Assembly (NCBI GenBank): GCA_020248665.1
Contig: JADCHE010000019.1
Coordinates: 1-41,275, forward strand
Direction of reading: 5' to 3'
DNA from: Burkholderiales bacterium
GTDB taxonomy: Bacteria; Pseudomonadota; Gammaproteobacteria; Burkholderiales; Burkholderiaceae_E
Length of the DNA stretch: 41,275 nt
Below are positions 2 through 41,275 of this stretch, piece after piece (position 1 is the stretch's first letter; every line of letters begins with the position of its first letter). The notes below the pieces were generated by a model. That model ran no database searches. It saw only the letters and a list, made by a program, of their open reading frames with translations, and was not told where the DNA came from. The translations under genes were made by a program, and so were the position numbers.

Positions 2-468
2 GCGCCCGACGGGCCGCGGGTCGCCACCGCGCCCACCGACGCCGCGTCCGCCGAGGCCCCGCGCCCCCCCGCCGTCGTGCTGCGCCCGCACCGCGCCGGC
101 GACCTCGGCTGGATCGTCGAGCGCCACGGCGCCCTGTACGCCGCCGAGTACGGCTGGGACCAGCGCTTCGAAGGCATGGTCGCCGGTATCGTCGCGCGCC
201 TCGTCGAGCGCTTCGACCCCGCGCGCGAGGTCTGCCTGATCGCCGAGCACGGCGGCGCGCGCGTCGGCTCGGCCGTCGTCGTGCGCGAGTCCGCGTCGGC
301 GGCCAAGCTGAGGCTGGTGCTGGTCGAGCCGTCGGCCCGCGGCCTCGGCATCGGCCGCGCGCTGGTGAGCGAGTGCCAGCGCGTCGCGCGCGAGGTCGGC
401 TACCGCTCGATGGTCCTCTGGACCAACGACGTGCTCGTGGCCGCCCGCGCGACGCCTACAATCGTCCC
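2..468 (+). pseudogene. GNAT-family acetyltransferase, probably a MarR-GNAT fusion; C-terminus missing
   Basis: The frame is open from the left window edge, so the 5' end lies outside. The visible part is a GNAT fold: an N-terminal segment around [20 protein letters not shown], a beta-strand pair ending LRLVLVEP, the acetyl-CoA loop [10 protein letters not shown], and then the [11 protein letters not shown] strand-helix. In bifunctional MarR-GNAT proteins this point is followed by about 35 more residues (an AGF turn and a last strand pair). Here the family similarity stops at about 450, and the frame runs on out of phase through pdxA to 715 as low-complexity Arg/Ser/Pro translation. A neighbouring frame reads RDAYNR at this spot, which resembles the expected helix, so a frameshift plus a deletion is possible. 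I read it as a gene that lost its 3' end at the junction with pdxA. MarR fusion is inference, because the N-terminus is not visible. Confidence 0.6.
457..462 (+). promoter_or_regulatory. -10 element (TACAAT) directly upstream of pdxA
   Basis: TACAAT matches the sigma-70 -10 consensus at 5 of 6 positions and ends 6 nt before the pdxA ATG at 469. A start 7 nt downstream of the hexamer would fall on the A of the ATG, giving a leaderless mRNA. The -35 position (434-439, CTCGTG) is poor. The element sits in the decayed tail of the GNAT gene. Confidence 0.4.
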
Positions 469-1479
469 ATGGACACCGGACGCCCGCCGTTCGCGGTCAC
501 GATGGGCGACGCCTGCGGCATCGGCCCCGAGATCGTGCTCAAGGCCTTCGCCGCGCACGCCGCCGTGCCCGGCGCGCCGTCGCTCGTCGTCTACGGCGAC
601 GCGGGCGTGCTCGCCCGGCAGGCGCGCGCGCTCGGCCTCGCGCTCGACGTCGTGCCCGTCGCGCGACCGGCCGACGCGGCACGCGCGGGCGCCGGGCGCC
701 CGCGCGTGCCGGTGATCGCCTGCTCCGACCTGCCTGCACACCTGCCCCTCGGCCGCGTCGACGCCCGCGCAGGCGCCGCCGCCCACGCCGCGATCGTCGA
801 GGCGAGCCGCGCCGCGATGCGCGGCGAGGTCCGCGCGGTCGTCACGGCGCCGATCCACAAGGCAGCGCTCGCGGCCGCCGGCGTGAAGCACCCCGGCCAC
901 ACCGAGATCCTCGCCGAGGTCGCCGGGGTGCCGGACGTGCGGATGATGCTGGCCAACGACGAGCTGCGCACGATCCTCGTCACCATCCACGTGCCGCTGC
1001 GTGCCGCGATCGACGCGATCACCCGCGAGGCGGTGCGCGACACGATCGCGATCGCCGACGCGGGCCTCAGGCGCCTCGGCGTCGCGCGGCCTCGGATCGC
1101 GGTCGCGGGCCTGAACCCGCACGCCGGCGAGGGCGGGCTGATGGGCCGCGAGGAGATCGAGACGATCGCGCCGGCGGTCGCCGACGCGCGCGCCGCCGGC
1201 ATCGACGCGAGCGGCCCGTGGCCCGGCGACACGGTGTTCATGCGCGCGCGCGGCTTCCGGGAGTTCGACGTCGTCGTCGCGATGTACCACGACCAGGGGC
1301 TGATCCCGGTCAAGTACCTCGGCCTCGACAGCGGCGTGAACGTGACCGTCGGACTGCCGTTCGTGCGCACGTCCGTCGACCATGGCACCGCGTTCGACCT
1401 CGCGGGCCGCGGCCTCGCCGACCCCCGCAGCCTCCTCGCCGCGATCGAGCTCGCGACGAAGCTCGCCCCCGACCGCTGA
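469..1479 (+). CDS. pdxA: PdxA-family 4-phosphohydroxy-acid dehydrogenase (PdxA or PdxA2-like)
   Basis: 336 aa, the usual PdxA length. The family oxidises a phosphorylated hydroxy acid with NAD and decarboxylates it. PdxA acts on 4-phosphohydroxy-L-threonine in vitamin B6 synthesis, and PdxA2 paralogues act on 4-phospho-D-threonate or -erythronate. Visible motifs are [12 protein letters not shown] at the N-terminus, TAPIHK, the metal-binding histidine motifs [15 protein letters not shown] and MYHDQG, and the C-terminal [15 protein letters not shown]. The ATG at 469 is chosen because family similarity begins at once ([15 protein letters not shown]), although the frame is open further upstream. 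No ksgA, surA or apaH neighbour is present, and the TMGD-type N-terminus is common in the second paralogue of Burkholderiales. The B6 role is therefore not certain. Confidence 0.9.
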
Positions 1480-1541
1480 CCGCGCGCTCCAGAGCGTCCC
1501 GTCGCGCGCCCCCACGACCGACCCCGACCCGAGCCCGAGAC

Positions 1542-2651
1542 ATGCCCGACTTCCGCAGCGACACCGTCACCCGGCCCACCCCCGCGATGCGCGCCGCGAT
1601 CGCCGCCGCCGAGGTCGGCGACGACGTGTTCGCCGACGACCCGTCGATCAACGCGCTGCAGCACCACGCGGCCGAGATGCTCGGCTTCGAGGACGCGCTG
1701 TTCGCCGCATCGGGCACGCAGACCAACCTGATGGGCCTGCTGTCGCACTGCGAGCGCGGCGACGAGGCGATCGTCGGCCAGATGTGGCACACCTACCGCT
1801 GGGAGGCCGGCGGCATGGCGGTGCTTGGCTCGATCCAGCCGCAGCCGCTCGAGAACCGGCCCGACGGCACGATCGCGATCGACGCGATCGAGGCCGCGAT
1901 CAAGCCCGACGACCCGCACTTCGCGAAGTCGCGCCTCGTCGGCATGGAGAACACCACCGGCGGCAAGGTGCTGCCGATGGACTACCTGCGCGAGGTGCGC
2001 GAGCTCACGCGCCGGCGAGGCCTCGCCGCCCACCTCGACGGCGCGCGGCTCTTCAACGCGGCGGTCGAGGTCGCGCGCCGGCGTGCCGCCGGCGAGCGCG
2101 AGGGCGACGCGCACGGGGGCACGAGCACCGACCCGCGCGCGGTCGCCCGCGAGATCTGCTCGAACTTCGACAGCGTGTCGGTGTGCCTGTCGAAGGGCCT
2201 CGGCGCCCCGGTCGGCTCGCTGCTGCTCGGCTCGAAGCGCTTCGTCGCGCGCGCGCGCCGCTGGCGCAAGATGCTCGGCGGCGGCATGCGGCAGGCGGGG
2301 CTGCTCGCCGCGGGCGGCCTGCACGCGCTCGAGCACCACGTCGACCGCCTCGCCGAGGACCACGACAACGCGCGCGCGCTCGCCGAGGGCCTCGCCGCGC
2401 TCGGCCGCGCGAACGGCGATGCGATCCAGGTGGTGCCGCCGCAGACCAACATCGTGTTCGTGCAGGTCGCCGACGCGATCGCCGCGCCCTTTGCCGAGCA
2501 CCTGCTCGCGCACGGCGTGCGCACCACCGGCAGCACCGGCCGCTACGGCCAGGGGCTGGTGCAGCGCTGGGTCACCCACCTCGACGTGGACCGCGCCGAC
2601 GTCGACGAGGCGCTCGCGATCGCGTCCCGCTTCTTCGAATCGCGGCGGTGA
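1542..2651 (+). CDS. ltaE: Low-specificity L-threonine aldolase, PLP-dependent
   Basis: 369 aa, slightly longer than the usual 340-350. It cleaves L-threonine or allo-threonine to glycine and acetaldehyde. The sequence opens with MPDFRSDTVTRPTPAMRAAI, the signature start of the family. It continues with GDDVFADDPSINALQ, SGTQTNLMGLLSHC, a HLDGARLFNAAV segment holding the PLP-binding Asp, and CLSKGLGAPVGSLL with the Schiff-base lysine at about residue 218. An insertion of about 20 residues between HLDGAR and the lysine motif explains the extra length. It lies 62 nt after pdxA on the same strand and may be co-transcribed with it. Whether the two share a pathway through glycine, threonine or B6 is inference. 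Confidence 0.93.
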   Translation: MPDFRSDTVTRPTPAMRAAIAAAEVGDDVFADDPSINALQHHAAEMLGFEDALFAASGTQTNLMGLLSHCERGDEAIVGQMWHTYRWEAGGMAVLGSIQPQPLENRPDGTIAIDAIEAAIKPDDPHFAKSRLVGMENTTGGKVLPMDYLREVRELTRRRGLAAHLDGARLFNAAVEVARRRAAGEREGDAHGGTSTDPRAVAREICSNFDSVSVCLSKGLGAPVGSLLLGSKRFVARARRWRKMLGGGMRQAGLLAAGGLHALEHHVDRLAEDHDNARALAEGLAALGRANGDAIQVVPPQTNIVFVQVADAIAAPFAEHLLAHGVRTTGSTGRYGQGLVQRWVTHLDVDRADVDEALAIASRFFESRR

Positions 2652-2667
2652 CGCGGCGCACGACGCG

Positions 2668-3181
2668 ATGAGCGGCGCGACGGGCGGCGGATCCGGCGAT
2701 GGACCGGCGGCGCACGCCGACGTGCCGCGAGGCACCGTGCCGTTCCGCGAGGGCGACCCGTGCCGCGGCTTCCCGTTCGTGCTCGACGGCGAGGTCAGCG
2801 TCGCGCGCGGCTCACCCGGGGCCCGCTCGATCGAGCGCTACCGCGTCGGCCCCGGCGAGGTTCGCCTGCTGTCGGCCTCGCGCGCGTTCTCCTCGCTGCT
2901 GCAGGCCGCGCGCGCGAGTGCCGCGACCGCGACGCGGCCGTGGCCCGCGCCGCCCGAGGCCTTCCTCGCGTGGATGGCTGCGCCCGCGTTCCGCGCGTTC
3001 GTCTTCGGGGTGCACGGCGAGCGGCTCGCCGACCTGATGGGCCTCGCCGAGGCGGTCGCCTTCCAGCGGATGGACCGGCACCTCGCCGGCGCGCGGCTCG
3101 GGCGCGAGCGCATCGCGATCGTCGACGCTGCGGGCGCTGTCCGACGGCGAAGGGCCGGCGGACGCGCGCCCCGAGGCCTGA
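2668..3181 (+). pseudogene. Crp/Fnr-family regulator relic lacking the helix-turn-helix
   Basis: The first 140 or so residues are a cyclic-nucleotide-binding-like (Crp/Fnr) sensor: VPFREGDPCRGFPFVLDGEV, a GEVRLLSAS strand, then FVFGVHGERLADLMGL and EAVAFQRMDRHLAGARL at the start of the dimer helix. An intact member would follow with about 55 residues of winged helix. Here LAGARL is joined directly to GRERIAIVDAA, the segment that normally ends the DNA-binding domain, so the HTH has been cut out in frame. A second lesion follows: after IVD the natural C-terminus LRALSDGEGPADARPEA-stop is found only in the next frame, ending at 3181. The middle segment (about 2880-2940) is also poorly conserved. 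The original frame runs open to 3432, antisense to the flavin reductase. Two independent lesions make this a pseudogene. Confidence 0.75.
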
Positions 3182-3194
3182 GCGGGGCGCCGAA

Positions 3195-3875
3195 TCAGTC
3201 GTTCGGCCCGTCGCGTCGCAGGATCGTCTCCTCGTTTCGGATGCGCGCGTACAGCGCGCGCCCGAGCCGCCCGACCGGACGCATCGCCTCGACGCGAAGC
3301 AGGTCGATCCGGTGGTTCATGCCCTTGACGGTGCCGAGGTACACGCGCTCGTCGACGTGCACGTGCCGCACCTGCCCCATCACCCACCAGCTGCCGCCGA
3401 GCTCGATGATCGAGTGCACGGTGCACTCGTAGGCGACCGGCGCACCGGCCACGCGCGGGGGCTTCACCGTGGTGGACGGCGCCTCCGGCAGCTTCGCGAA
3501 GTCGAACTCGCTCTCGCCGGGCGGCAGGCCGGTCGAGGTCTCGACCATCGGCAGCATCATCGACTCGGGGACGATGTTGACGACCATCTCGCCGTTCGCG
3601 CGGATGTTCACCAGCGTGTCCTTGGGCTTGGGCTGGCCGCGCGCGTCGCGGCCCGCGCCCCCGACCGAGAAGCCGACGATCGGCGGATCGGGCGAGCAGA
3701 CGTTGAAGAAGCTGTACGGCGCGAGGTTGCTGCGCCCCTCGCGGTCGATCGTCGACACCCAGGCGATCGGCCGCGGCATGATCGCGTCGCGCAGCAGCAG
3801 GTACATCTCGTTGGCCGTCAGCGAGGCGGGATTCAGCTCCACGGTGGGCGGGGGTCGGTCCGGGGGTCGGTCCAT
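3195..3875 (-). CDS. Flavin reductase-family (DIM6/NTAB) FMN-binding protein
   Basis: 226 aa. The N-terminal half carries the family core RDAIMPRPIAWVSTID, then GRSNLAPYSFFNVCSPDPPIV and GFSVGG, which line the FMN pocket. DTLVNIRANGEMVVNIV and YECTVHSIIELGG follow, and a C-terminal HVDERVYLGTVKGMNHRIDLLRVEAMRPVGRLG segment matches the typical flavin reductase-like split-barrel end. Members reduce FMN with NAD(P)H or bind FMN as redox proteins. The substrate is unknown here. The ATG at 3875 is chosen because the preceding in-frame residues (TPD) show no family similarity. It diverges from the DUF2892/TraR set across a 195-nt gap containing a CRP-type palindrome. Its 3' end faces the Crp/Fnr relic. 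Confidence 0.88.
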   Translation of the reverse strand: MDRPPDRPPPTVELNPASLTANEMYLLLRDAIMPRPIAWVSTIDREGRSNLAPYSFFNVCSPDPPIVGFSVGGAGRDARGQPKPKDTLVNIRANGEMVVNIVPESMMLPMVETSTGLPPGESEFDFAKLPEAPSTTVKPPRVAGAPVAYECTVHSIIELGGSWWVMGQVRHVHVDERVYLGTVKGMNHRIDLLRVEAMRPVGRLGRALYARIRNEETILRRDGPND

Positions 3876-3992
3876 GTCGGGCGTCGCTCGGTCGGTGGCG
3901 GAAGCGGCGACTGTACCGGAGGCTCGCCGCGGCCGCCGCGGGCCGCCCCGTGCCTCGGCACGCCCGGGCACGCGACTCGCCTGCCGGCGTCG

Positions 3993-4008
3993 TGTGACCG
4001 CGGTCACA
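3993..4008. promoter_or_regulatory. Perfect CRP/FNR-family palindromic operator
   Basis: TGTGACCGCGGTCACA is a perfect 16-bp palindrome and an exact match to the TGTGA-N6-TCACA Crp consensus. It lies 117 nt upstream of the flavin reductase start and 62 nt upstream of the DUF2892 start, in the gap between these divergent genes. I could not find a convincing -10 at -41.5 on either side. The regulator that would be expected to use it may be the neighbouring Crp/Fnr gene, which has lost its HTH, or a Crp encoded elsewhere. Confidence 0.65.
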
Positions 4009-4070
4009 GACCGCTGCGGCCGTTCGGCGATCCAGTGGGCCCGATGGCACCACACCCAGGGAGGCAGGCC

Positions 4071-4805
4071 ATGGAGGCGAACCTCGGCGGCACCGAGCGC
4101 GTGCTGCGCATCGTCGTCGGTCTGGTCCTGATCGCACGCGCGGCGACGGACACGGTCGGCGCCTGGGGCCGGATCGGGGTCGTCCCGCTGGCCACCGGGC
4201 TGTTCCGGGTCTGCCCGGTCGATCCGCTGCTCGGCCTGAGCACCTGCCCGCTGCGCAAGGCGGGCGGCTCCGCCTGGGTGCGGCGACGGCGGCGGACCGG
4301 GCACCGCCGCCGTCCCGACCCACGGTCGTGCTTGACCTCGATCAAGGATCGCGGCGGCGTCGCGGCCTACGATGGTGGGGCAGTCACGAAGCACGCCCGC
4401 GAAGCACCCACGACAAGGCCCGCCACGATGGACCCCCTCGACGCAGCCCGCATCCGCCGCACGATCGAGCACCGGCTCGACGCGCTGCGCGGCGAGATCA
4501 CCGACAAGCTCGGCGACGCCGCGCTCGTCAACGAAGGCCTCGACCACAGCGCCGACTCGGGCGACCTGTCGGTTGCCAACGATACCGCGAGCGCCGACTT
4601 CGCCGACGCGCGCCGCGACATCGAGGAATACCAGGCCGGCCGCGCCGCGCTCGCGCGACTCGAGTCCGGCGACTACGGCACCTGCGTCGACTGCGGCGAG
4701 GCGATCCCCGCCGCGCGGCTGCAGGCGCAGGCCTTCGCGATCCGCTGCGTCGCGTGCCAGGAGCGCCGCGAGCGCGCGGCCGGCACGCACCGCAGCACGC
4801 TGTAG
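4071..4805 (+). CDS. DUF2892 (YgaP-like) membrane protein; frame runs on without a stop into the TraR/DksA gene
   Basis: The first 67 or so residues are a DUF2892 protein: MEANLGGTERVLRIVVGLVL, a first membrane helix, WGRIGVVPLATGLFRVCPVDPLLG with a second hydrophobic stretch, and the typical ending LSTCPLRKAG. Family members normally stop here at 62-70 residues. In this window no stop follows in frame. Translation would continue through an Arg-rich stretch and straight into the TraR protein that starts at 4428, giving 244 aa. A stop in the neighbouring frame at about 4333-4335 suggests that a frameshift or a stop-codon loss removed the original end. The SD-like AGGGAGGC just before the ATG at 4071 supports this start. 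The FNR-type promoter at 4332-4373 lies inside this run-on, so TraR probably also has its own transcript. Confidence 0.55.
   Translation: MEANLGGTERVLRIVVGLVLIARAATDTVGAWGRIGVVPLATGLFRVCPVDPLLGLSTCPLRKAGGSAWVRRRRRTGHRRRPDPRSCLTSIKDRGGVAAYDGGAVTKHAREAPTTRPATMDPLDAARIRRTIEHRLDALRGEITDKLGDAALVNEGLDHSADSGDLSVANDTASADFADARRDIEEYQAGRAALARLESGDYGTCVDCGEAIPAARLQAQAFAIRCVACQERRERAAGTHRSTL
4332..4373 (+). promoter_or_regulatory. FNR/ANR-type class II promoter for the TraR gene
   Basis: TTGACCTCGATCAA at 4332-4345 is a TTGAY-N4-ATCAA box of the FNR/ANR/DNR type, and TACGAT at 4368-4373 is a good -10. With transcription starting 7 nt after the hexamer at 4380, the box centre at 4338.5 lies at -41.5, the standard position for FNR-activated class II promoters. 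The TraR/DksA start is 48 nt further on at 4428. Oxygen-limitation control is inferred from this architecture. Confidence 0.65.
4428..4805 (+). CDS. TraR/DksA-family C4-type zinc-finger protein
   Basis: 125 aa, DksA/TraR-like in size. An N-terminal helical part (residues about 1-80, rich in Ala, Asp and Arg) would form the coiled coil that enters the RNA polymerase secondary channel. The C-terminal zinc finger is CVDCGEAIPAARL followed by RCVACQ, so all four cysteines are present. Family members modulate RNA polymerase, often with ppGpp. The ATG at 4428 has an AAGG about 10 nt upstream and follows an FNR-type promoter. The frame is continuous with the DUF2892 protein upstream, so a fusion product is formally possible. 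It is followed by the 'translational machinery protein' gene, a pairing that suggests a stress or low-oxygen role. Confidence 0.88.
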   Translation: MDPLDAARIRRTIEHRLDALRGEITDKLGDAALVNEGLDHSADSGDLSVANDTASADFADARRDIEEYQAGRAALARLESGDYGTCVDCGEAIPAARLQAQAFAIRCVACQERRERAAGTHRSTL

Positions 4806-34335: not shown

Positions 34336-34634
34336 GGGACGAGGCTCCTGGAACACGGGGCGAAGGACGGGTCCGCGCGGAACCCAGGGAACGGTTGACG
34401 AAGACAAGCCTAGACCGATCGGGCACGTGCGCCGCCTGAGATGAGCGGCAGGAAAACCCGGCAGTTCGACCGCGCCCCACCCGGCGGACGCGCGGCGCCG
34501 ACGCACGGCGCGCGCGCCGCGCGGACCACCGCGTGCCGGCGCCGAAGCGGGGCGGCCCGAAGCGGGGCCCGACTCACGCCGCGCGACGCGGTGTCCTGGA
34601 CGCGCGGCGCGCGAAGCGGTCGCGCGGACCTTGC
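34336..34634. other. 299-nt gap between the chemotaxis gene and the LacI gene
   Basis: Mostly G/C-only sequence. Around 34547-34570 CGAAGCGGGGC occurs twice, with a third partial copy (CGAAGCGG) near 34613. TTGACG near 34394 and TAGACC near 34411 could be a weak plus-strand promoter. I found no gene, no intrinsic terminator and no clear sigma-28 promoter for the chemotaxis gene. Confidence 0.5.
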
Positions 34635-35705
<1,071 letters not shown>

Positions 35706-35717
35706 CAACGCGGAGGT

Positions 35718-35746
35718 TTGACCCTGCCCTGCGCGCCTCCTACGCT
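35718..35746 (+). promoter_or_regulatory. Promoter of the TRAP/RuBisCO-like operon
   Basis: TTGACC (35718-35723), a 17-nt spacer and TACGCT (35741-35746) form a good sigma-70 promoter, with start near 35753 and a 45-nt leader to dctP. The ribosome site GGGGAG is at 35785-35790. No clear LacI-type palindrome overlaps it. Confidence 0.6.
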
Positions 35747-35797
35747 CGGCCGACCGGTGCCCGCCGGACACCATCGAACCACACCGGGGAGACCATC

Positions 35798-36832
35798 ATG
35801 CCCGCAATCAAGAACGGCCGCAGCGCCGGCCCGCGTCGCGCCGTCGTCGCCGGCCTCGCGGCCGCCGCAGCGCTCGTCGCCTCGCCCACGGCCCTCGCGC
35901 AGCAGGCGAAGACGATCGAATGGCGCTACGGCCACATGAACCCGCCGAACAGCGCGGCGGGCATGCAGGCGCAGTGGCTCGCGGAGGCGATCGCGAAGTA
36001 CTCCAACGGGCAGATCAAGGTCACGGTCTATCCGTCCTCGCAGCTCGGCAAGCTGCAGGAGCTCGCCGAGGCGGTGTCCACCGGCACGATCGCGCTGTCG
36101 CACAACACCGCGGGCGGCATCGGCTCGCTGCACGAGCCCTTCGGCGCGCTCGACACGCCGTACCTGTACCGCGACGTCGACCACCTGATGAAGGTCGTCG
36201 ACGTGAACTCGTCGGTGATGAGGAAGCTCAACGAGGGCCTGGTGAAGTCGGCCGGCGTTCGCGTGCTCTACGCGTACTACTTCGGCACGCGCCAGCTGAC
36301 CGCGAACAGGGCGGTGATGCAGCCCTCCGACCTTGCCGGCCAGAAGATCCGCGCGATCCCGTTCCCGATCTACATGAGCACGGTGCAGGGCCTCGGCGCG
36401 GTACCGGTGCCGGTGGACTGGTCGGAGGTGCCGACCGCGCTCGCGACCGGGCAGGTCGCGGGGCAGGAGAACCCGGTCAACGTCGTGCTGTCGTCCAAGC
36501 TCTACGAGACCCAGTCGCACATGATGCTGACCGGGCACATCATGAACGCGCAGCTGATCGTCATCAACGAGAAGGCCTGGCAGGGCCTGTCGCCGGAGAT
36601 GAAGGCCGCGCTCGCGAAGGCCGCCGACGAGGTCCGCACGAAGGCGACCGAGCACGTCCGCGCGCAGGAGGCCGACGAGACCGAGAAGCTCAAGGGGCTG
36701 AGGATGAAGGTCTTGGGTCCCGCCGAGGGCCTGAAGCTCGACGCGTTCAAGGCCTCGGTCAACAAGGTGGTGCAGGACCGGTTCGGCGCGAAGTTCGGCG
36801 AGCTCTACAAAGAGATCGCGGCGGTCCGGTGA
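35798..36832 (+). CDS. dctP: TRAP transporter solute-binding protein (DctP family)
   Basis: 344 aa. A signal peptide (RRAVVAGLAAAAALVASPTA, cleavage near ALAQQ) precedes the mature start KTIEWRYGHMNPPNSAAG. DctP features are QWLAEAIAKYSNGQIKVTVY, PSSQLGKLQELAEAVSTGTI, then LAGQKIRAIPFPIYMSTVQG, in which the Arg-containing segment is where the conserved carboxylate-binding arginine lies, and PTALATGQVAGQENPVNVVL. These proteins bind organic acids. GGGGAG 7 nt upstream supports the ATG. The stop overlaps the GTG of dctQ (GTGA). The ligand is probably a sugar acid given the downstream kinase, which is inference. Confidence 0.95.
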   Translation: MPAIKNGRSAGPRRAVVAGLAAAAALVASPTALAQQAKTIEWRYGHMNPPNSAAGMQAQWLAEAIAKYSNGQIKVTVYPSSQLGKLQELAEAVSTGTIALSHNTAGGIGSLHEPFGALDTPYLYRDVDHLMKVVDVNSSVMRKLNEGLVKSAGVRVLYAYYFGTRQLTANRAVMQPSDLAGQKIRAIPFPIYMSTVQGLGAVPVPVDWSEVPTALATGQVAGQENPVNVVLSSKLYETQSHMMLTGHIMNAQLIVINEKAWQGLSPEMKAALAKAADEVRTKATEHVRAQEADETEKLKGLRMKVLGPAEGLKLDAFKASVNKVVQDRFGAKFGELYKEIAAVR

Positions 36833-37329
36833 AGCCGATCGGGCGGATCCTCGACGCGGCCTGCCGCGTCGGGGAGGCGGTAGCGATGGTCATGCTCGCG
36901 CTCGTCACCGTGCTGATCCTGCTGATGATCGTCGGCCGCGAGCTGCTGAACGATGGCGTGCCCTGGGCCGACGAGCTCGCGCGGCTGGGCGGCCTGGGGC
37001 TGATCTTCCTCGCCGCGCCGCTGCTGCTCGCCCGCGACGCGCACGTGAAGGTCGACTTCTTCGTGAACCGGCTGCCCGAGGGCGGGCGGCGCGCGATGCT
37101 GCGGCTCGTCGACCTGCTGACGGCCGCCTTCTGCGGGCTCTTCCTCGTCGCCGGCTGGTTCTTCCTGCAGCGCGCCGGACGTTTCTCGACGCCCGCGCTG
37201 TCGCTGCCGAACCTGCTGTTCTACCTGCCGGCGATCGTCGGCGTCGCGCTGCTCGCGCTGGTCGCGGTGCACCGCCTGGTCTCGCCCCGCACCCCGACCG
37301 ACGCGGCGGCCGGCGCCCACGGCATCTGA
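36829..37329 (+). CDS. dctQ: TRAP transporter small membrane subunit (DctQ family)
   Basis: 166 aa from a GTG in the dctP stop (GTGA). Four membrane helices are visible, the first VAMVMLALVTVLILLMIVGR. GVPWADELARLGGLGLIFLA and HVKVDFFVNRLPEG match the DctQ pattern of an E-DELAR loop followed by V-DFF. It partners dctM in the membrane. Confidence 0.93.
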   Translation: MKPIGRILDAACRVGEAVAMVMLALVTVLILLMIVGRELLNDGVPWADELARLGGLGLIFLAAPLLLARDAHVKVDFFVNRLPEGGRRAMLRLVDLLTAAFCGLFLVAGWFFLQRAGRFSTPALSLPNLLFYLPAIVGVALLALVAVHRLVSPRTPTDAAAGAHGI

Positions 37330-37344
37330 CCGGAGCGCGTGGCG

Positions 37345-38625
37345 ATGATGAGCCTCGTGGCGGTGCTGCTGTTCCTCGTGCTGACCGTCGCCGGGCTGCC
37401 GATCGCGTTCGCGATGGGGCTGTCCGCCGGCACGGTGATCTGGTGGTTCGACCTGCCGCTCGCGGTGATCGCGCAGCGCACCGTCAATGCGCTCGATTCG
37501 ACGCCGCTGCTCGCGGTGCCGATGTTCATCTTCGCGGCGGCGATCTTCAACGCCGCGGGCATCACCGCGCAGCTGTTCGACTTCGTGCGGATGGTGGTCG
37601 GCCGCATCCACGGCGGACTCGGGCACGTGACGGTGCTCACGCACCTGGTGTTCTCGGGCGTGTCGGGCGCGGCGCTCGCCGACATCGGCGCGCTCGGCAA
37701 GGTCCAGATCGACATGATGCGCGAGCAGGGCTACGACGACGAGTTCGCCGCCGGCATCTGCATGGCGGCGGCGACGCTCGGGCCGATCTTCCCGCCGTCG
37801 ATCCCGCTGGTGATCTTCGCGATGGCCGCCGAGGTCTCGCCGGTCAAGGTGCTGATCGCGGCGATCATTCCGTCGCTGATCATCGCCGCCTTCCTGATGG
37901 GGCAGGTCGTCTGGACCGCGAAGCGCCGCGGCCTGCCGCGCGACACGATCGTGATCACCCGCGCCGACTTCCTGCGCACCTTCTGGATGTCGCTGCCCGC
38001 GCTGCTCGCGCCGGTGGTGCTGATCGGCGGCATGGTGATCGGCTGGTTCGGCTCGACCGAGGCGGCCGCGGTGACGGTCGCCTATTCGCTGCTCGTCGGC
38101 GTGCTGTTCTACCGGCGCCTCACCTGGGCGGGCCTGCTCGCGGCGGCGCGCGAGACGGTGCGGTCGTCGGCGAGCGTGATGCTGATCGTCGGTACCGCGG
38201 CCCTGTTCGCCTGGGTGCTGACGATCGACCAGGTGCCGATGAAGGCGACCGAGCTGCTGCTCGGCCTGTCGAAGGAGCCCTGGGTGCTGCTGCTGCTGGT
38301 CAACGTGCTGCTGCTGGTGCTCGGGATGGTGATGGAGACGCTCGCCGCGATCCTGATCGTCGCGCCGATCGTCACGCCGGCGCTGGTGGCCGCCGGCGTC
38401 GACCCGGTGCACCTGGGCGTCGTGGTGGTGCTGAACCTGATGATCGGCCTGCTGACGCCGCCGGTGGGGATGAGCCTGTACATGGTGTCGAACGTCGCGG
38501 GGATGCCGGTCGACCGCGTCGTCGCGAGCGCGTGGCCGTGGATCGTGACGCTCGGGCTGTCGCTGCTCGCGGTGACCTACGTGCCCGCGGCCTCCACCTG
38601 GCTGCCGGGCCTGCTGATGAAGTGA
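37345..38625 (+). CDS. dctM: TRAP transporter large membrane subunit (DctM family)
   Basis: 426 aa from the ATG at 37345, 9 nt after GGAG; a GTG at 37339 would add two residues but is too close to that site. About twelve helices are present. Family blocks include VAGLPIAFAMGLSAGTVIWW, VPMFIFAAAIFNAAGITAQL and GLGHVTVLTHLVFSGVSGAA. ATLGPIFPPSIPLVIFAMAA and NLMIGLLTPPVGMSLYMVSN follow. It forms the Na+- or proton-driven channel for the substrate bound by DctP. Confidence 0.95.
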   Translation: MMSLVAVLLFLVLTVAGLPIAFAMGLSAGTVIWWFDLPLAVIAQRTVNALDSTPLLAVPMFIFAAAIFNAAGITAQLFDFVRMVVGRIHGGLGHVTVLTHLVFSGVSGAALADIGALGKVQIDMMREQGYDDEFAAGICMAAATLGPIFPPSIPLVIFAMAAEVSPVKVLIAAIIPSLIIAAFLMGQVVWTAKRRGLPRDTIVITRADFLRTFWMSLPALLAPVVLIGGMVIGWFGSTEAAAVTVAYSLLVGVLFYRRLTWAGLLAAARETVRSSASVMLIVGTAALFAWVLTIDQVPMKATELLLGLSKEPWVLLLLVNVLLLVLGMVMETLAAILIVAPIVTPALVAAGVDPVHLGVVVVLNLMIGLLTPPVGMSLYMVSNVAGMPVDRVVASAWPWIVTLGLSLLAVTYVPAASTWLPGLLMK

Positions 38626-38647
38626 CCTCCTCCGATCGAGAACGACG

Positions 38648-39187
38648 ATGAGCAGATTCCTCGGCGAGATCCGCCAGCTCGGCTACGTGGTGCACGACGT
38701 CGAGGCCGCGATGCACCACTGGAGCCGCGTGCTCGGCGTGGGCCCGTGGTTCTACAACCCGAAGGTGCCGATCGTGAACTACACCTACGACGGCGAGCCG
38801 TACCAGCCGCACAACTCGGTCGCGCTGGCCAACTCGGGCTTCGTGCAGGTCGAGCTGATCCAGCCGCGCAACGACGTGCCGTCGATGTACCGCGACTTCC
38901 TGCGCGCCGGGCGCACCGGGCTGCAGCACGTCGCCTACTGGACGTCGTCGTTCGACGAAGACCTCGCGCGCCTGCAGGCGCAGGGCTTTCGCGTGAAGAT
39001 GGGCGGCGAGGTCGGCGAGCGCGGCCGCTTCGTCTACTTCGACGGCGAGTTCCACCCGGGCGCGGTGATCGAGCTCTCCGAAGTGCAGGGCCCGAAGGGC
39101 AGGATGTTCGATATGATCCGCGAGGCGTCGCGCGGCTGGGACGGCCGCGATCCGGTGCGCCCCTTCCCCGACCTCACGACCCTCTGA
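38648..39187 (+). CDS. VOC-superfamily enzyme (glyoxalase/epimerase-like)
   Basis: 179 aa. Two beta-alpha-beta-beta-beta modules are visible: GEIRQLGYVVHDVEAAMHHW, SRVLGVGPWFYNPK and NSGFVQVELIQPRNDVPSMY, then GLQHVAYWTSSFDEDLARL and FVYFDGEFHPGAVIELSE. By eye the likely metal ligands are His 16, Glu 69 (or Gln 67), His 94 and Glu 142, the pattern of methylmalonyl-CoA epimerase-type VOC enzymes. Possible chemistries are epimerisation, isomerisation or lyase. Placement between TRAP genes and a RuBisCO-like gene (1-nt gap) argues for a step in the same pathway. I know of no assigned VOC enzyme in apionate-type catabolism. ATG at 38648 has weak GAGAACG upstream. Confidence 0.8.
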   Translation: MSRFLGEIRQLGYVVHDVEAAMHHWSRVLGVGPWFYNPKVPIVNYTYDGEPYQPHNSVALANSGFVQVELIQPRNDVPSMYRDFLRAGRTGLQHVAYWTSSFDEDLARLQAQGFRVKMGGEVGERGRFVYFDGEFHPGAVIELSEVQGPKGRMFDMIREASRGWDGRDPVRPFPDLTTL

Positions 39188-39188
39188 C

Positions 39189-40490
39189 ATGGCCGCTGCA
39201 CCCGGCGACGAGCGCATCGTCGCGACCTACCTGATCGAGACCCCGCTCGACCCGGCGAAGGTCGCCGACGTGCTCGCCGGCGAGCAGAGCAGCGGCACCT
39301 TCGTGCGCGTGGCCGGCGAGACCGACGACCTGCGCGCGCGCAGCCGCGCGACGGTCGAGCGGATCGTCGAGTTCGAGCCGGCGGGCGCGCCGAGCCTGCA
39401 CAGCGCGTGGCTCGCCGGGCGCGGCGCGACCGGGCCGTGGCGGCGCGCGCGCGTCGAGGTCGCGTTCCCGCCGGCGAACATCGGGCGCAACCTGCCGACG
39501 CTCGCCGCGACCGTCGCCGGCAACCTCTACGACCTCGGCGAGACCACCGGCGTGCGGCTCGAGCACCTCGCGCTGCCCGCCTCGTTCCGCGAGCGCTTCG
39601 ATCGGCCGCGCCAGGGCGTCGCCGGCACCCGTCGGCTCACCGGCGTCGCGAGCGGGCCGATCGCCGGCACGATCGTCAAGCCGAACGTCGGCCTGTCGGC
39701 CGCGCAGACCGCCGAGCTCGTCGACGCGCTGTGCCGCGCCGGCATCGACTTCGTGAAGGACGACGAGGTCAACGCCGACTCCGAGCACGCGCCGATCGCC
39801 GACCGGATCCGCGCGGTGATGGCGAAGGTGCGCCGCTGGCAGGACGAGAGCGGCAAGCACGTGATGGTCGCCTTCAACGTCAGCGGCACGCACGACGAGA
39901 TGCTGCGCCACGCCGAGCTGGTGCAGCGCGAGGGCGGCAGCTGCGTGATGGCGAGCCTGAACTGGGTCGGCTTCTCGACGATGCAGGCACTGCGCCGCAG
40001 CACCGACCTCGCGATCCATGGCCACCGCAACGGCTTCGGGATGTTCGACCGGCACCCCGCGCTCGGCATGGCCTTCCAGCCGTACCAGGCGATGTGGCGG
40101 CTCGCCGGCATCGACCACCTGCACGTGCACGGCATGGGCGGCAAGTTCGCGCAGCGCGACGAGGACGTCGCCGACGCGGCCCGCGCCTGCCTCGCGCCGC
40201 TCGCCGCCGCGTCCGGCTGCGACGACCGCGACGACGCCGACGACCGTATCGTGCCCGCGTTCTCCTCGGGCCAGTGGGCAGGCACGCTGCCGCGCACGCT
40301 CGAGGTCGTCCCCGACGGCGACCTGCTGTTCCTGTGCGGCGGGGGCATCCTCGCGCACCCGGGCGGCCCCGCCGCCGGCGTGACCAGCGTGCGGCAGGCC
40401 TGGGCGGCGACGCGCGCCGGCCGCAGCCTCGCCGACGCCGCGCGCGACGCGCCCGAGCTGCGCGACGCGCTCGCGTTCTTCGGGTCGTGA
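39189..40490 (+). CDS. RuBisCO-like protein (form IV type)
   Basis: 433 aa, RuBisCO large-subunit length. The N-terminal domain has AGEQSSGTFVRVAGET, aligning with the E60/T65 region, and ARVEVAFPPANIGRNLPTLA. AGNLYDLGETTGVRLEHL carries the N123-like Asn 112. The barrel has GTIVKPNVGLS (Lys 164, like K175) and AGIDFVKDDEVNADSEH (Lys 190, Asp 192, Glu 193, like the carbamylated K201 and metal ligands D203/E204). It also has IHGHRNG (His 277, like H294), HGMGGKF (Lys 319, like loop-6 K334), FSSGQ (Ser like S379) and LFLCGGGILAHPGG for phosphate. This near-complete set is unlike methionine-salvage RLPs, which lose several residues. Overlap with a DUF1537 kinase suggests a 3-oxo-sugar-acid-phosphate decarboxylase such as OiaX; not proven. 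Confidence 0.88.
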   Translation: MAAAPGDERIVATYLIETPLDPAKVADVLAGEQSSGTFVRVAGETDDLRARSRATVERIVEFEPAGAPSLHSAWLAGRGATGPWRRARVEVAFPPANIGRNLPTLAATVAGNLYDLGETTGVRLEHLALPASFRERFDRPRQGVAGTRRLTGVASGPIAGTIVKPNVGLSAAQTAELVDALCRAGIDFVKDDEVNADSEHAPIADRIRAVMAKVRRWQDESGKHVMVAFNVSGTHDEMLRHAELVQREGGSCVMASLNWVGFSTMQALRRSTDLAIHGHRNGFGMFDRHPALGMAFQPYQAMWRLAGIDHLHVHGMGGKFAQRDEDVADAARACLAPLAAASGCDDRDDADDRIVPAFSSGQWAGTLPRTLEVVPDGDLLFLCGGGILAHPGGPAAGVTSVRQAWAATRAGRSLADAARDAPELRDALAFFGS

Positions 40491-41275
40491 GCGCGCCGCG
40501 GCTCGCCTGGGTCGGCGACGACTTCACCGGCGCGAGCGACACCCTCGCGACGCTCGCCACAGGCGGCGCGCGCGCGCTGCTGTTCCTCGACGTGCCGACC
40601 GCGGCGCGCCTCGCCGCGGTCGGGCCGCTCGACGCCGTCGGCGTCGCGACCGCGGTGCGCTCGATGGCGCCCGGGGCGATGCGCTCGGCGCTCGCGCCGA
40701 TCGCCGCGTGGCTCGCGGCGAGCGGCGTGCCGCTGGTGCACTACAAGGTCTGCTCGACCTGGGACAGTGCGCCTCACGTCGGCAACGTCGGCGAGGCGGT
40801 CCGCACGCTGTGGTCGCCCGCGTACGCACCGTGGGTCCCGCTGGTGGGCGGGCAGCCGAGCCTCGGGCGCTGGTGCGTGTTCGGGCAGCTCTTCGCGCAG
40901 GCGGGCGTCGGCGGGCCGGTGTTCCGCATCGACCGGCATCCGACGATGAGCCGCCATCCGGTCACGCCGATGGACGAGGCCGACCTCGCGGTGCACCTCG
41001 CGAAGCAGGGCCTCGCACCGGTCGCGACGATCGACTGGCGCACGCTGGAGGCGGGCGACGCGGCGATCGACGCGGCGCTGCGCGAGGCGATCGACGGCGC
41101 CGGCCCGGCCGACGCGTCCGGCCCGTGCGACGCCGGCGGCCGCGTCGCCCCGCCGCGCCCCGTGCTCCTCGACGCGATGCGCGACGCGCACCTCGCCGCG
41201 ATCGGCACCGCGCTCGCGCGGCACGCGCGCGGCCGGCCGGTGCTCGCGGTCGGCGCGAGCAGCGTCGCGCAGGCC
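40487..41275 (+). CDS. DUF1537 (four-carbon acid sugar) kinase, cut by the window edge
   Basis: 263 codons visible from a GTG overlapping the RuBisCO-like gene (GTGA). The frame is open to the right edge. The family signature GDDFTGASDTLATLATGG is near the N-terminus, then YKVCSTWDSAPHVGNVGEAV, VGGQPSLGRWCVFGQLFAQA and RHPTMSRHPVTPMDEADL, all matching the DUF1537 N-terminal domain. Family members phosphorylate threonate, erythronate, 3-oxo-tetronate or 3-oxo-isoapionate. Coupling to a RuBisCO-like protein favours the last type (OiaK-like). The nucleotide-binding C-terminal domain lies outside the window. Confidence 0.92.
   Translation, partial: MSAPRLAWVGDDFTGASDTLATLATGGARALLFLDVPTAARLAAVGPLDAVGVATAVRSMAPGAMRSALAPIAAWLAASGVPLVHYKVCSTWDSAPHVGNVGEAVRTLWSPAYAPWVPLVGGQPSLGRWCVFGQLFAQAGVGGPVFRIDRHPTMSRHPVTPMDEADLAVHLAKQGLAPVATIDWRTLEAGDAAIDAALREAIDGAGPADASGPCDAGGRVAPPRPVLLDAMRDAHLAAIGTALARHARGRPVLAVGASSVAQA

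Follow-up and report, generated by a model that had tools for sequence, protein, structure and literature searches.

A gene cassette at the end of a 41,275-nucleotide stretch of DNA (the window, which is contig C101 of a Burkholderiales bacterium genome of 5.07 Mb in 218 contigs) raises the question of what compound is broken down when a VOC-superfamily enzyme stands between a TRAP importer and a RuBisCO-like protein (RLP) with its DUF1537 kinase. In D-apionate catabolism, ApnO provides the oxidation plus rearrangement step, and the route, reportedly worked out by Carter and colleagues in 2018, is said to run via ApnO, OiaK, and either OiaX or OiaT. A preliminary description of the window had placed a sugar-acid operon here, had seen no ApnO-type oxidoisomerase in it, and had suggested that the VOC protein might take that place or that the substrate might differ from apionate. 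We tentatively, and at less than even confidence, read the locus as a two-module catabolic cassette for the import of a keto or aldehyde sugar acid, its isomerization by the VOC enzyme, its phosphorylation, and its cleavage by the RLP.

Gene order and conservation of the cassette

Family profile scans found every gene named in the preliminary description, in the order claimed. A LacI-family regulator of 350 amino acids, with a helix-turn-helix and a Peripla_BP_4 sensor, is encoded on the reverse strand (34635 to 35687; PF00356, 42 bits, and PF13407, 118 bits, scanned on a longer open reading frame). On the forward strand, the solute-binding protein DctP (35798 to 36832; TIGR00787, 200.9 bits, cut-off 175; PF03480 also over its cut-off), the small permease DctQ (36829 to 37329; PF04290, 99 bits), and the large permease DctM (37339 to 38625; TIGR00786, 394 bits, cut-off 268) make up a complete TRAP transporter. 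They are followed by the VOC-superfamily enzyme, proposed here to be an isomerase (38648 to 39187; PF13669, 91 bits), the RLP (39189 to 40490; PF00016, 226 bits against a gathering cut-off of 30), and the N-terminal part of the DUF1537 (four-carbon acid sugar) kinase (40487 to 41275; PF07005, 165 bits). Genes were called with a codon-score script, and their start positions are approximate. The interval first given for the operon, 35705 to 41275, misses the LacI gene. The GTGA overlap of the RLP and kinase genes was borne out (40487 to 40490), and by reading-frame coordinates, dctP and dctQ overlap alike (36829 to 36832).

A scan for the RLP across 84,980 species genomes returned 296 stretches, of which 223 are relatives, and the best 80 loci were kept. 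The VOC gene lies directly 5′ of the RLP gene in 74 of these 80 loci, so that the partnership picked out by the preliminary description goes beyond chance, and in all 74 the TRAP genes are upstream and the kinase gene is next. A LacI gene is found upstream in 72 of the 74; the other two loci (L021 and L053) end at a contig edge. The six loci without a VOC gene before the RLP gene are L006, L007, L008, L012, L084, and L085. Near-identical gene order recurs in many soil, plant-associated, and marine bacteria, which we take from their organism names to be alpha-, beta-, and gammaproteobacteria. Among the 80 fetched loci, the closest relatives of the window by RLP identity are Burkholderiales metagenome-assembled genomes.

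The cassette occurs on both chromosomes and plasmids. Twenty plasmid records carry the VOC gene (E 1e-40), and all five that were opened show LacI-TRAP-VOC-RLP-kinase with a second TRAP type, one of them with an added short-chain dehydrogenase/reductase (SDR). In Azospirillum brasilense the cassette is plasmid-borne and has this other TRAP type, and an orthologue of the window DctP occurs in Stappia indica. Four of the five plasmid records are annotated, with generic names only, the RLP appearing as "ribulose-bisphosphate carboxylase large subunit family protein" or "ribulose 1,5-bisphosphate carboxylase large subunit." Surveys by taxonomic order, a few of whose genomes were already among the 80 loci, found the VOC gene in 12 of 244 genomes of the order of the Salipiger locus L026 (E 1e-60), with the RLP gene adjoining in all 12, and in 25 of 249 genomes of the order of the Neorhizobium locus L015 (E 1e-20). 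In a 340-genome sample of the window's class, the VOC gene (E 1e-40) was found only in the window's own genome.

Median identity to the window proteins (68 to 74 loci) is highest for the VOC enzyme (72%), the best conserved protein of the cassette, followed by DctP (63%) and by DctM and the RLP (59.5% each); LacI (45.5%), DctQ (41%), and the kinase (38%) are less conserved. Clustering of all reading frames recovered no further enzyme family in more than seven loci, save one ABC ATPase-like cluster (identified by eye) in 32. Gene sets were compiled without the short loci L118 to L131. This lack of a further cassette enzyme fits products that are central metabolites. Topic searches of an open-licence library listed no title describing the cassette.

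The RuBisCO-like protein, the kinase, and D-apionate catabolism

The RLP, which its PF00016 match places in the RuBisCO superfamily, keeps the catalytic residues K164, K190, D192, E193, H279, R280, K319, and S360 (in what we take to be RuBisCO numbering, assigned by motif), and these eight positions show no exception among the 77 VOC-linked and the 20 ApnO-linked RLP rows. Its best NCBIfam match is OiaX (NF042437), at 390 bits under a cut-off of 700, a value that RLPs in 18 of the 249 genomes of L015's order pass (758 to 791 bits). No OiaT model was among the matches of the NCBIfam scans. MtnW (NF007095, 131 of 409 bits; TIGR03332, 99 of 514 bits) and form III RuBisCO (below the curated cut-offs) were rejected as identities. 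The closest solved relative by sequence is PDB 3nwr, "A rubisco-like protein" (612 bits, residues 4 to 432), whose source is presumably a Burkholderia. According to one review, only a handful of RLPs have been characterized (PMC10176493).

A tree of 109 RLPs, built by a quick method with a midpoint root and no bootstrap, groups the VOC-linked rows except L174 in one clade of 80 with a branch of 0.69 and an approximate likelihood ratio support (SH-aLRT) of 100. This clade consists of 76 rows with a VOC gene and four VOC-less Burkholderiales, and it lies apart from the ApnO-linked, SDR-linked, and OiaX rows. At the thresholds chosen, seventeen positions distinguish VOC-linked from ApnO-linked RLPs; the ApnO group of 20 includes L166 and L190, whose RLPs are over the OiaX cut-off, and L162 and L163 were shown apart. 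The RLP of L117, a truncated gene call, was excluded from the tree and from the position test.

The kinase assignment stood as to family and needed correction as to extent, for the gene is incomplete in the window. The end of contig C101 cuts it after the SBD_N domain (PF07005), and the C-terminal NBD_C domain (PF17042, 67 bits) opens contig C63 (G000:C63:3-452); both domains are found in the intact gene of L007. On C63 the kinase end is followed by a hydratase-like gene and then a serine/threonine dehydratase gene, a pair also found behind the unbroken kinase gene of L007, L008, and L021. This synteny supports the order C101 to C63 (the contigs were left unjoined), with an estimated 35 or so kinase codons, judged from L007, absent between them. 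More closely, C63 (L004, 480 to 2450) has a hydratase-like fragment after the kinase end (527 to 637; 59% identity to the L007 protein), then a reversed Lumazine_bd_2 gene, then an intact hydratase-like gene, where L007, L008, and L021 have the intact gene straight after the kinase; the arrangement looks like duplication plus insertion.

Among NCBIfam models, the 263-residue kinase part in the window matches OiaK at 189 bits and 3-oxo-tetronate kinase at 96 bits; the corresponding scores for the intact L007 kinase are 245 and 137 bits. The OiaK cut-off (NF042436, 700) was not reached, and a 263-residue part cannot reach a whole-protein cut-off. Best NCBIfam matches thus uphold the earlier view of a sugar-acid operon with an OiaK-like kinase and an OiaX-like RLP, except that both fall short of the cut-offs by a wide margin.

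The same kinase family includes the 3-oxo-tetronate kinases, the second-best match, and the 3-oxo-tetronate route (OtnK with OtnI and OtnC) likewise phosphorylates a 3-oxo acid before decarboxylating it; in the cassette, the RLP replaces the class II aldolase-like decarboxylase and the kinase is closer to OiaK. The substrate could accordingly be a linear C4-C5 keto acid, an explanation we consider unlikely. The VOC enzyme would then interconvert 2-oxo- and 3-oxo-tetronate (the OtnI role) or tetruronate and 3-oxo-tetronate, the kinase would yield 3-oxo-tetronate 4-phosphate, and the RLP would decarboxylate this to dihydroxyacetone phosphate (the OtnC role), a single C3 product that would explain why the cassette has no further enzyme. 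However, both cassette-type kinases scanned match OiaK better than 3-oxo-tetronate kinase, ApnO and ApnL are frequent neighbors of sister-clade RLPs, and the aldolase of a variant cluster with a PdxA-family gene (see below) suggests a product longer than C3. The genome also has a separate tetronate pathway already: its other DUF1537 kinase, on contig C39 (L005, 7304 to 9525), passes the NCBIfam cut-off for 3-oxo-tetronate kinase, and the neighboring gene product passes that for L-threonate dehydrogenase.

D-apionate catabolism via OiaK and OiaX is cited in one paper (PMC6302742). Like that route, the cassette has a DUF1537 kinase beside an RLP that keeps the RuBisCO catalytic residues, and OiaX and OiaK are the top NCBIfam matches, far below their cut-offs. 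Unlike it, the cassette has a VOC gene and neither ApnO nor ApnL in the operon, a LacI regulator with a TRAP importer, and an RLP of a separate clade. The apionate-type clusters that we read have ABC-like or TRAP genes, and across L162 to L191 they differ in both gene order and transporter. Of those with an RLP over the OiaX cut-off, L162 and L163 hold a kinase and, by eye, a Gfo/Idh-like gene and ABC-type uptake genes, L166 holds a kinase, ApnO, and TRAP genes, and L190 holds a kinase, ApnO, and ApnL; in L164, no kinase or ApnO gene is labeled within 14 kb.

As first noted for the window, its cassette has no ApnO gene, and neither does the operon of any of the 74 VOC loci. L054 is the one fetched locus with both ApnO and VOC genes, and there ApnO belongs to a separate operon at the locus edge (2 to 4745), where the end of ApnO is followed by ABC-type uptake genes (by eye) some 5 kb beyond the LacI gene of the cassette. 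In the genomes of 30 loci chosen from the 80, an ApnO homologue (E 1e-5) was found in 10 and none in 20. All 10 genomes with ApnO have two RLPs; 19 of the 20 without it have one, and one (G387) has two (Fisher p 3.7e-7, kinship ignored). The second RLP lies inside the stretch fetched around ApnO in seven of the 10, further along the same contig in two, and on another contig in G375. ApnO therefore usually travels with its own RLP, and the cassette forms a system apart that probably takes a different input. D-apionate as the direct substrate is unlikely, since every one of these ApnO-bearing cassette genomes has a second RLP. Three RLP genes each (E 1e-100) were seen in G557 and G642.

The window's own genome has an ApnO homologue (64% identity) on contig C164, with the cassette RLP as its only RLP, so the ApnO step is absent from the operon and not from the genome. 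The homologue sits beside a GntR-type regulator and a LeuB/tartrate-dehydrogenase-like gene (L246, 5022 to 7757); LeuB-like genes also occur near ApnO in L182 and L191 (by eye) and near TRAP-VOC genes in L219 (scanned). That the cassette is an ordinary D-apionate operon served by an ApnO gene elsewhere in the genome is suggested by this homologue, in a genome that has no second RLP, and by the ApnO and ABC-type uptake genes of L054. Against this stand the 20 of 30 cassette genomes without ApnO, the second RLP in the other 10, and the absence of an ApnL match in the window's genome (a search without a positive control, the control genomes being silent too). The VOC enzyme would also be left unexplained, and we regard this account as very improbable.

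The VOC enzyme, probable modules, and the proposed route

The structure model of the VOC enzyme (pLDDT, a per-residue confidence score, 93.5) matches the putative methylmalonyl-CoA epimerase 3gm5, other epimerases, and glyoxalases in fold. Residues Q10, E69, H94, and E142 show no variation across 35 rows and reach 97% conservation or more in 77 rows; by alignment, they would occupy the metal-ligand positions of glyoxalase I. The Q/E/H/E pattern is presumably nearer that of human glyoxalase I than that of methylmalonyl-CoA epimerase. Both enzymes share a fold with the cassette VOC protein, and enzymes of these types mostly move protons beside carbonyls. Methylmalonyl-CoA epimerase was rejected as the identity of the VOC protein (TIGR03081, 21.5 of 115 bits). 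Distant VOC relatives (46 to 51% identity) occur in another neighborhood in L227 to L230, with P450 and ferredoxin genes in L227 to L229 (by eye).

The glyoxalase-like fold, together with the RLP-kinase pairs that lack a VOC gene (L006 to L008 and L012), lends something to the idea that the VOC protein is a repair or detoxifying enzyme, acting for example on reactive dicarbonyls of the pathway, while the imported acid goes straight to the kinase and RLP. We hold this to be quite unlikely, since no other cassette protein is as well conserved as the VOC enzyme, whose gene adjoins TRAP genes in 74 of 74 loci and is absent together with them.

The LacI-TRAP-VOC genes behave as a block. In L006, L007, L008, and L012 the block is absent and the RLP-kinase pair is kept (the L006 contig ends within the kinase gene, and the upstream sequence of L007 is limited to 364 bp). 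The core can therefore be supplied by some other means. In L008 the 3′ end of LacI (81% identity to window positions 34633 to 34753) adjoins the 3′ end of VOC, and the close relative L021 keeps the VOC gene; L012, judging from gene sizes, has the pattern of L010 around the site minus the block. Because L008 and its near relative differ, the block was probably lost more than once. Conversely, the hybrid locus L174 has LacI-TRAP-VOC genes followed by an RLP and a kinase, each belonging to an ApnO-type clade (kinase tree of 68 rows, with 31 of 76 VOC-linked kinases), its RLP carrying ApnO-type residues at all five positions compared. G603 has TRAP-VOC genes alone (L219) and an ApnO-RLP-kinase cluster elsewhere (L173). 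These arrangements, along with VOC loci in which a PdxA-family gene takes the RLP's position (see below), suggest that LacI-TRAP-VOC is an entry module separable from the kinase-RLP core. The hybrid, along with the separate ApnO operon of L054, adds support to the earlier idea that the VOC enzyme stands in ApnO's place.

Genes, gene order, conservation, clades, module swaps, and conserved residues are observed; what we infer about substrate class, VOC reaction, order of steps, and products is as follows. LacI would sense the substrate, and the TRAP importer would bring in a sugar acid at the keto or aldehyde level. The VOC enzyme, as a metal-dependent glyoxalase-like isomerase, would convert it without NAD to a 3-oxo (beta-keto) sugar acid; the likeliest product is 3-oxo-isoapionate or a branched compound closely homologous to it. 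The kinase would phosphorylate the hydroxyl next to the ketone, and the RLP, with the carbamate and metal chemistry of RuBisCO, would decarboxylate or hydrolyze the phosphorylated beta-keto acid to central metabolites. The VOC enzyme would hold ApnO's place because what is imported already has the keto or aldehyde group. The gene sets fit either a split of ApnO's oxidation and rearrangement (SDR, then VOC) or no need for the oxidation (VOC alone). The intermediate may be 3-oxo-isoapionate, as L174 and the window's own genome suggest, or a homologue, as a retuned RLP and kinase would have it. Aceric acid, carboxylated tetroses, 2-oxo-apionate, and hamamelonate are candidates on paper, and no result separates them.

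Alternatively, oxidation could come first. The imported compound might be a branched acid in reduced form, such as D-apionate, isoapionate, or hamamelonate (2-carboxyarabinitol), and a cassette SDR or a dehydrogenase encoded elsewhere would oxidize it, leaving the VOC enzyme only to epimerize the keto acid; we find this rather doubtful. An SDR gene does precede the transporter genes in three of the 74 loci (L013, L014, and L015) and on the plasmid of Neorhizobium NCHU2750, and SDR genes occur in two RLP loci with neither VOC nor ApnO (L169 and L176). The RLP of the D-hamamelose pathway of Ochrobactrum anthropi, reportedly the subject of work by Kim and colleagues in 2018, would be a precedent for an RLP late in the breakdown of a branched sugar, as proposed for the cassette. 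Two papers cite an RLP as acting in D-hamamelose breakdown in that organism (PMC8914248, PMC10176493). Yet no dehydrogenase like the SDR of L015 lies within the operon in 71 of 74 VOC loci (one elsewhere in the genome is possible), and 20 of the 30 cassette genomes searched have no ApnO at E 1e-5.

Several observations weigh against the keto- or aldehyde-acid route that we prefer. The first concerns the core. RLPs of the VOC clade and of the ApnO type show near-fixed differences at N166/S, H314/N, G318/N, and T366/Q, and also at W259/S. By our own motif assignment, the first four of these positions sit by catalytic motifs, so a retuning of the binding site is probable. The kinase is strongly diverged, the L007 protein matching OiaK at 245 bits compared with 430 to 568 bits for those of L084, L085, L169, L174, and L222. 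Substrate and product may therefore differ from those of the apionate route. The second RLP of all 10 ApnO-bearing cassette genomes is a further point against. As for the entry module, DctP points to no particular ligand: it has similar-scoring sequence and structure matches to varied TRAP proteins, sialic-acid binders included, and its structure model is partly poor (mean pLDDT 76.8). Fold matches of the VOC enzyme also include hydroxymandelate synthase and HPPD-type dioxygenases, and its metal site is a putative one drawn from the residue pattern. The 2,3-diketo-L-gulonate transporter YiaMN was rejected as the identity of the importer (PRK15060, 248.6 of 800 bits; PRK09877, 33.8 of 260 bits).

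The main misfit is a variant cluster. Among 19 VOC loci of L015's order (at least 62% identity), the RLP gene is beside the VOC gene in 11, one has neither an RLP nor a PdxA gene, and in seven a PdxA-family gene replaces the RLP, six of them with an L222-like kinase and a DeoC/LacD-type aldolase. PdxA usually oxidizes a hydroxy acid, and such an oxidation is unsuited to a ready-made 3-oxo acid. PdxA in the variant may act as a decarboxylase or may mark a second substrate. The loci L220 to L226 hold TRAP, VOC, PdxA-family dehydrogenase, OiaK-like kinase, DeoR regulator, and DeoC/LacD aldolase genes, and seem to encode a route that handles this substrate, or a related one, with no RLP; L220 has no kinase or aldolase gene nearby, and rhamnose-type genes adjoin in L224 and L226 (by eye).

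The upstream site and what the cassette may mean

Between LacI and the transporter genes, the window carries a direct repeat, CCATCA-N4-CCATCA (35692 to 35707, forward strand, period 10 bp), as a putative regulator site, followed after 10 nucleotides by a −35-like element, TTGACC (35718 to 35723, forward strand). The repeat lies 4 bp upstream of the LacI start codon, which was picked by coding score plus this site; a longer LacI reading frame starting at 35774 would overrun the conserved site. Across 75 cassette intergenic regions (from LacI to the first transporter gene or the SDR gene), the repeat consensus CaTCAAAAnnCaTCA occurs with a period of exactly 10 bp on the operon strand in 71, compared with a mean of 0.77 and a maximum of 5 in shuffled sequences, 4 of 75 on the reverse strand, and 1 to 14 of 75 for other repeat gaps (0 to 4 and 6 to 8). 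TTGnC follows within 5 to 12 nucleotides in 54 of 75 cassettes (mean in shuffles, 0.013). These statistics describe the pattern and do not test it, because it was derived from the same, mutually related loci. In the window, repeat plus box reads CATCAAGATCCATCAACGCGGAGGTTTGAC (35693 to 35722), the single match in the window and one with 0 matches in 100 window shuffles.

The repeat as defined was not found in L038, L043, L044, or L054. Repeat and box are also present in L220 and L221, where TRAP-VOC genes have no adjoining RLP gene, and not in L219 or L222 to L226. A generic sigma-70 promoter scan gave no full match at the window site. A palindromic LacI operator was rejected, since no palindrome is common to the cassettes and the common site is a direct repeat. 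LacI-family operators are mostly palindromic, which makes a direct repeat unusual; it could mark an activator. Ahead of the cassette, to judge from the reading frames between 26620 and 34335 of the window, are genes for a siderophore receptor of the TonB type, ABC uptake, a GTPase of the CobW type, and a chemoreceptor, and a TonB siderophore receptor gene also adjoins the cassette in L247.

Taken together, the cassette probably shares its core chemistry with the apionate RLP pathways and differs in entry step, transporter, regulator, and RLP clade. It is possible, though we hold it doubtful, that the VOC enzyme provides a new redox-free entry to RuBisCO-like chemistry. In that event it would be a metal-dependent aldose-ketose or alpha-ketol isomerase that makes a beta-keto acid from an imported branched sugar acid with an aldehyde or keto group, such as a 3-C-carboxy aldose (on paper, the aceric acid found in pectin RG-II would fit); a new RLP subfamily would cleave the product after phosphorylation, and TRAP-VOC would alternatively feed a PdxA-plus-aldolase route. 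The RLP subfamily is well bounded, with 76 of its 80 clade rows tied to the same small gene set. With three enzymes and one importer, substrate and reaction are directly testable in culturable hosts such as Azospirillum brasilense, and solving the cassette would assign a role to a VOC family of high conservation and yield an expression-predicting regulatory site.

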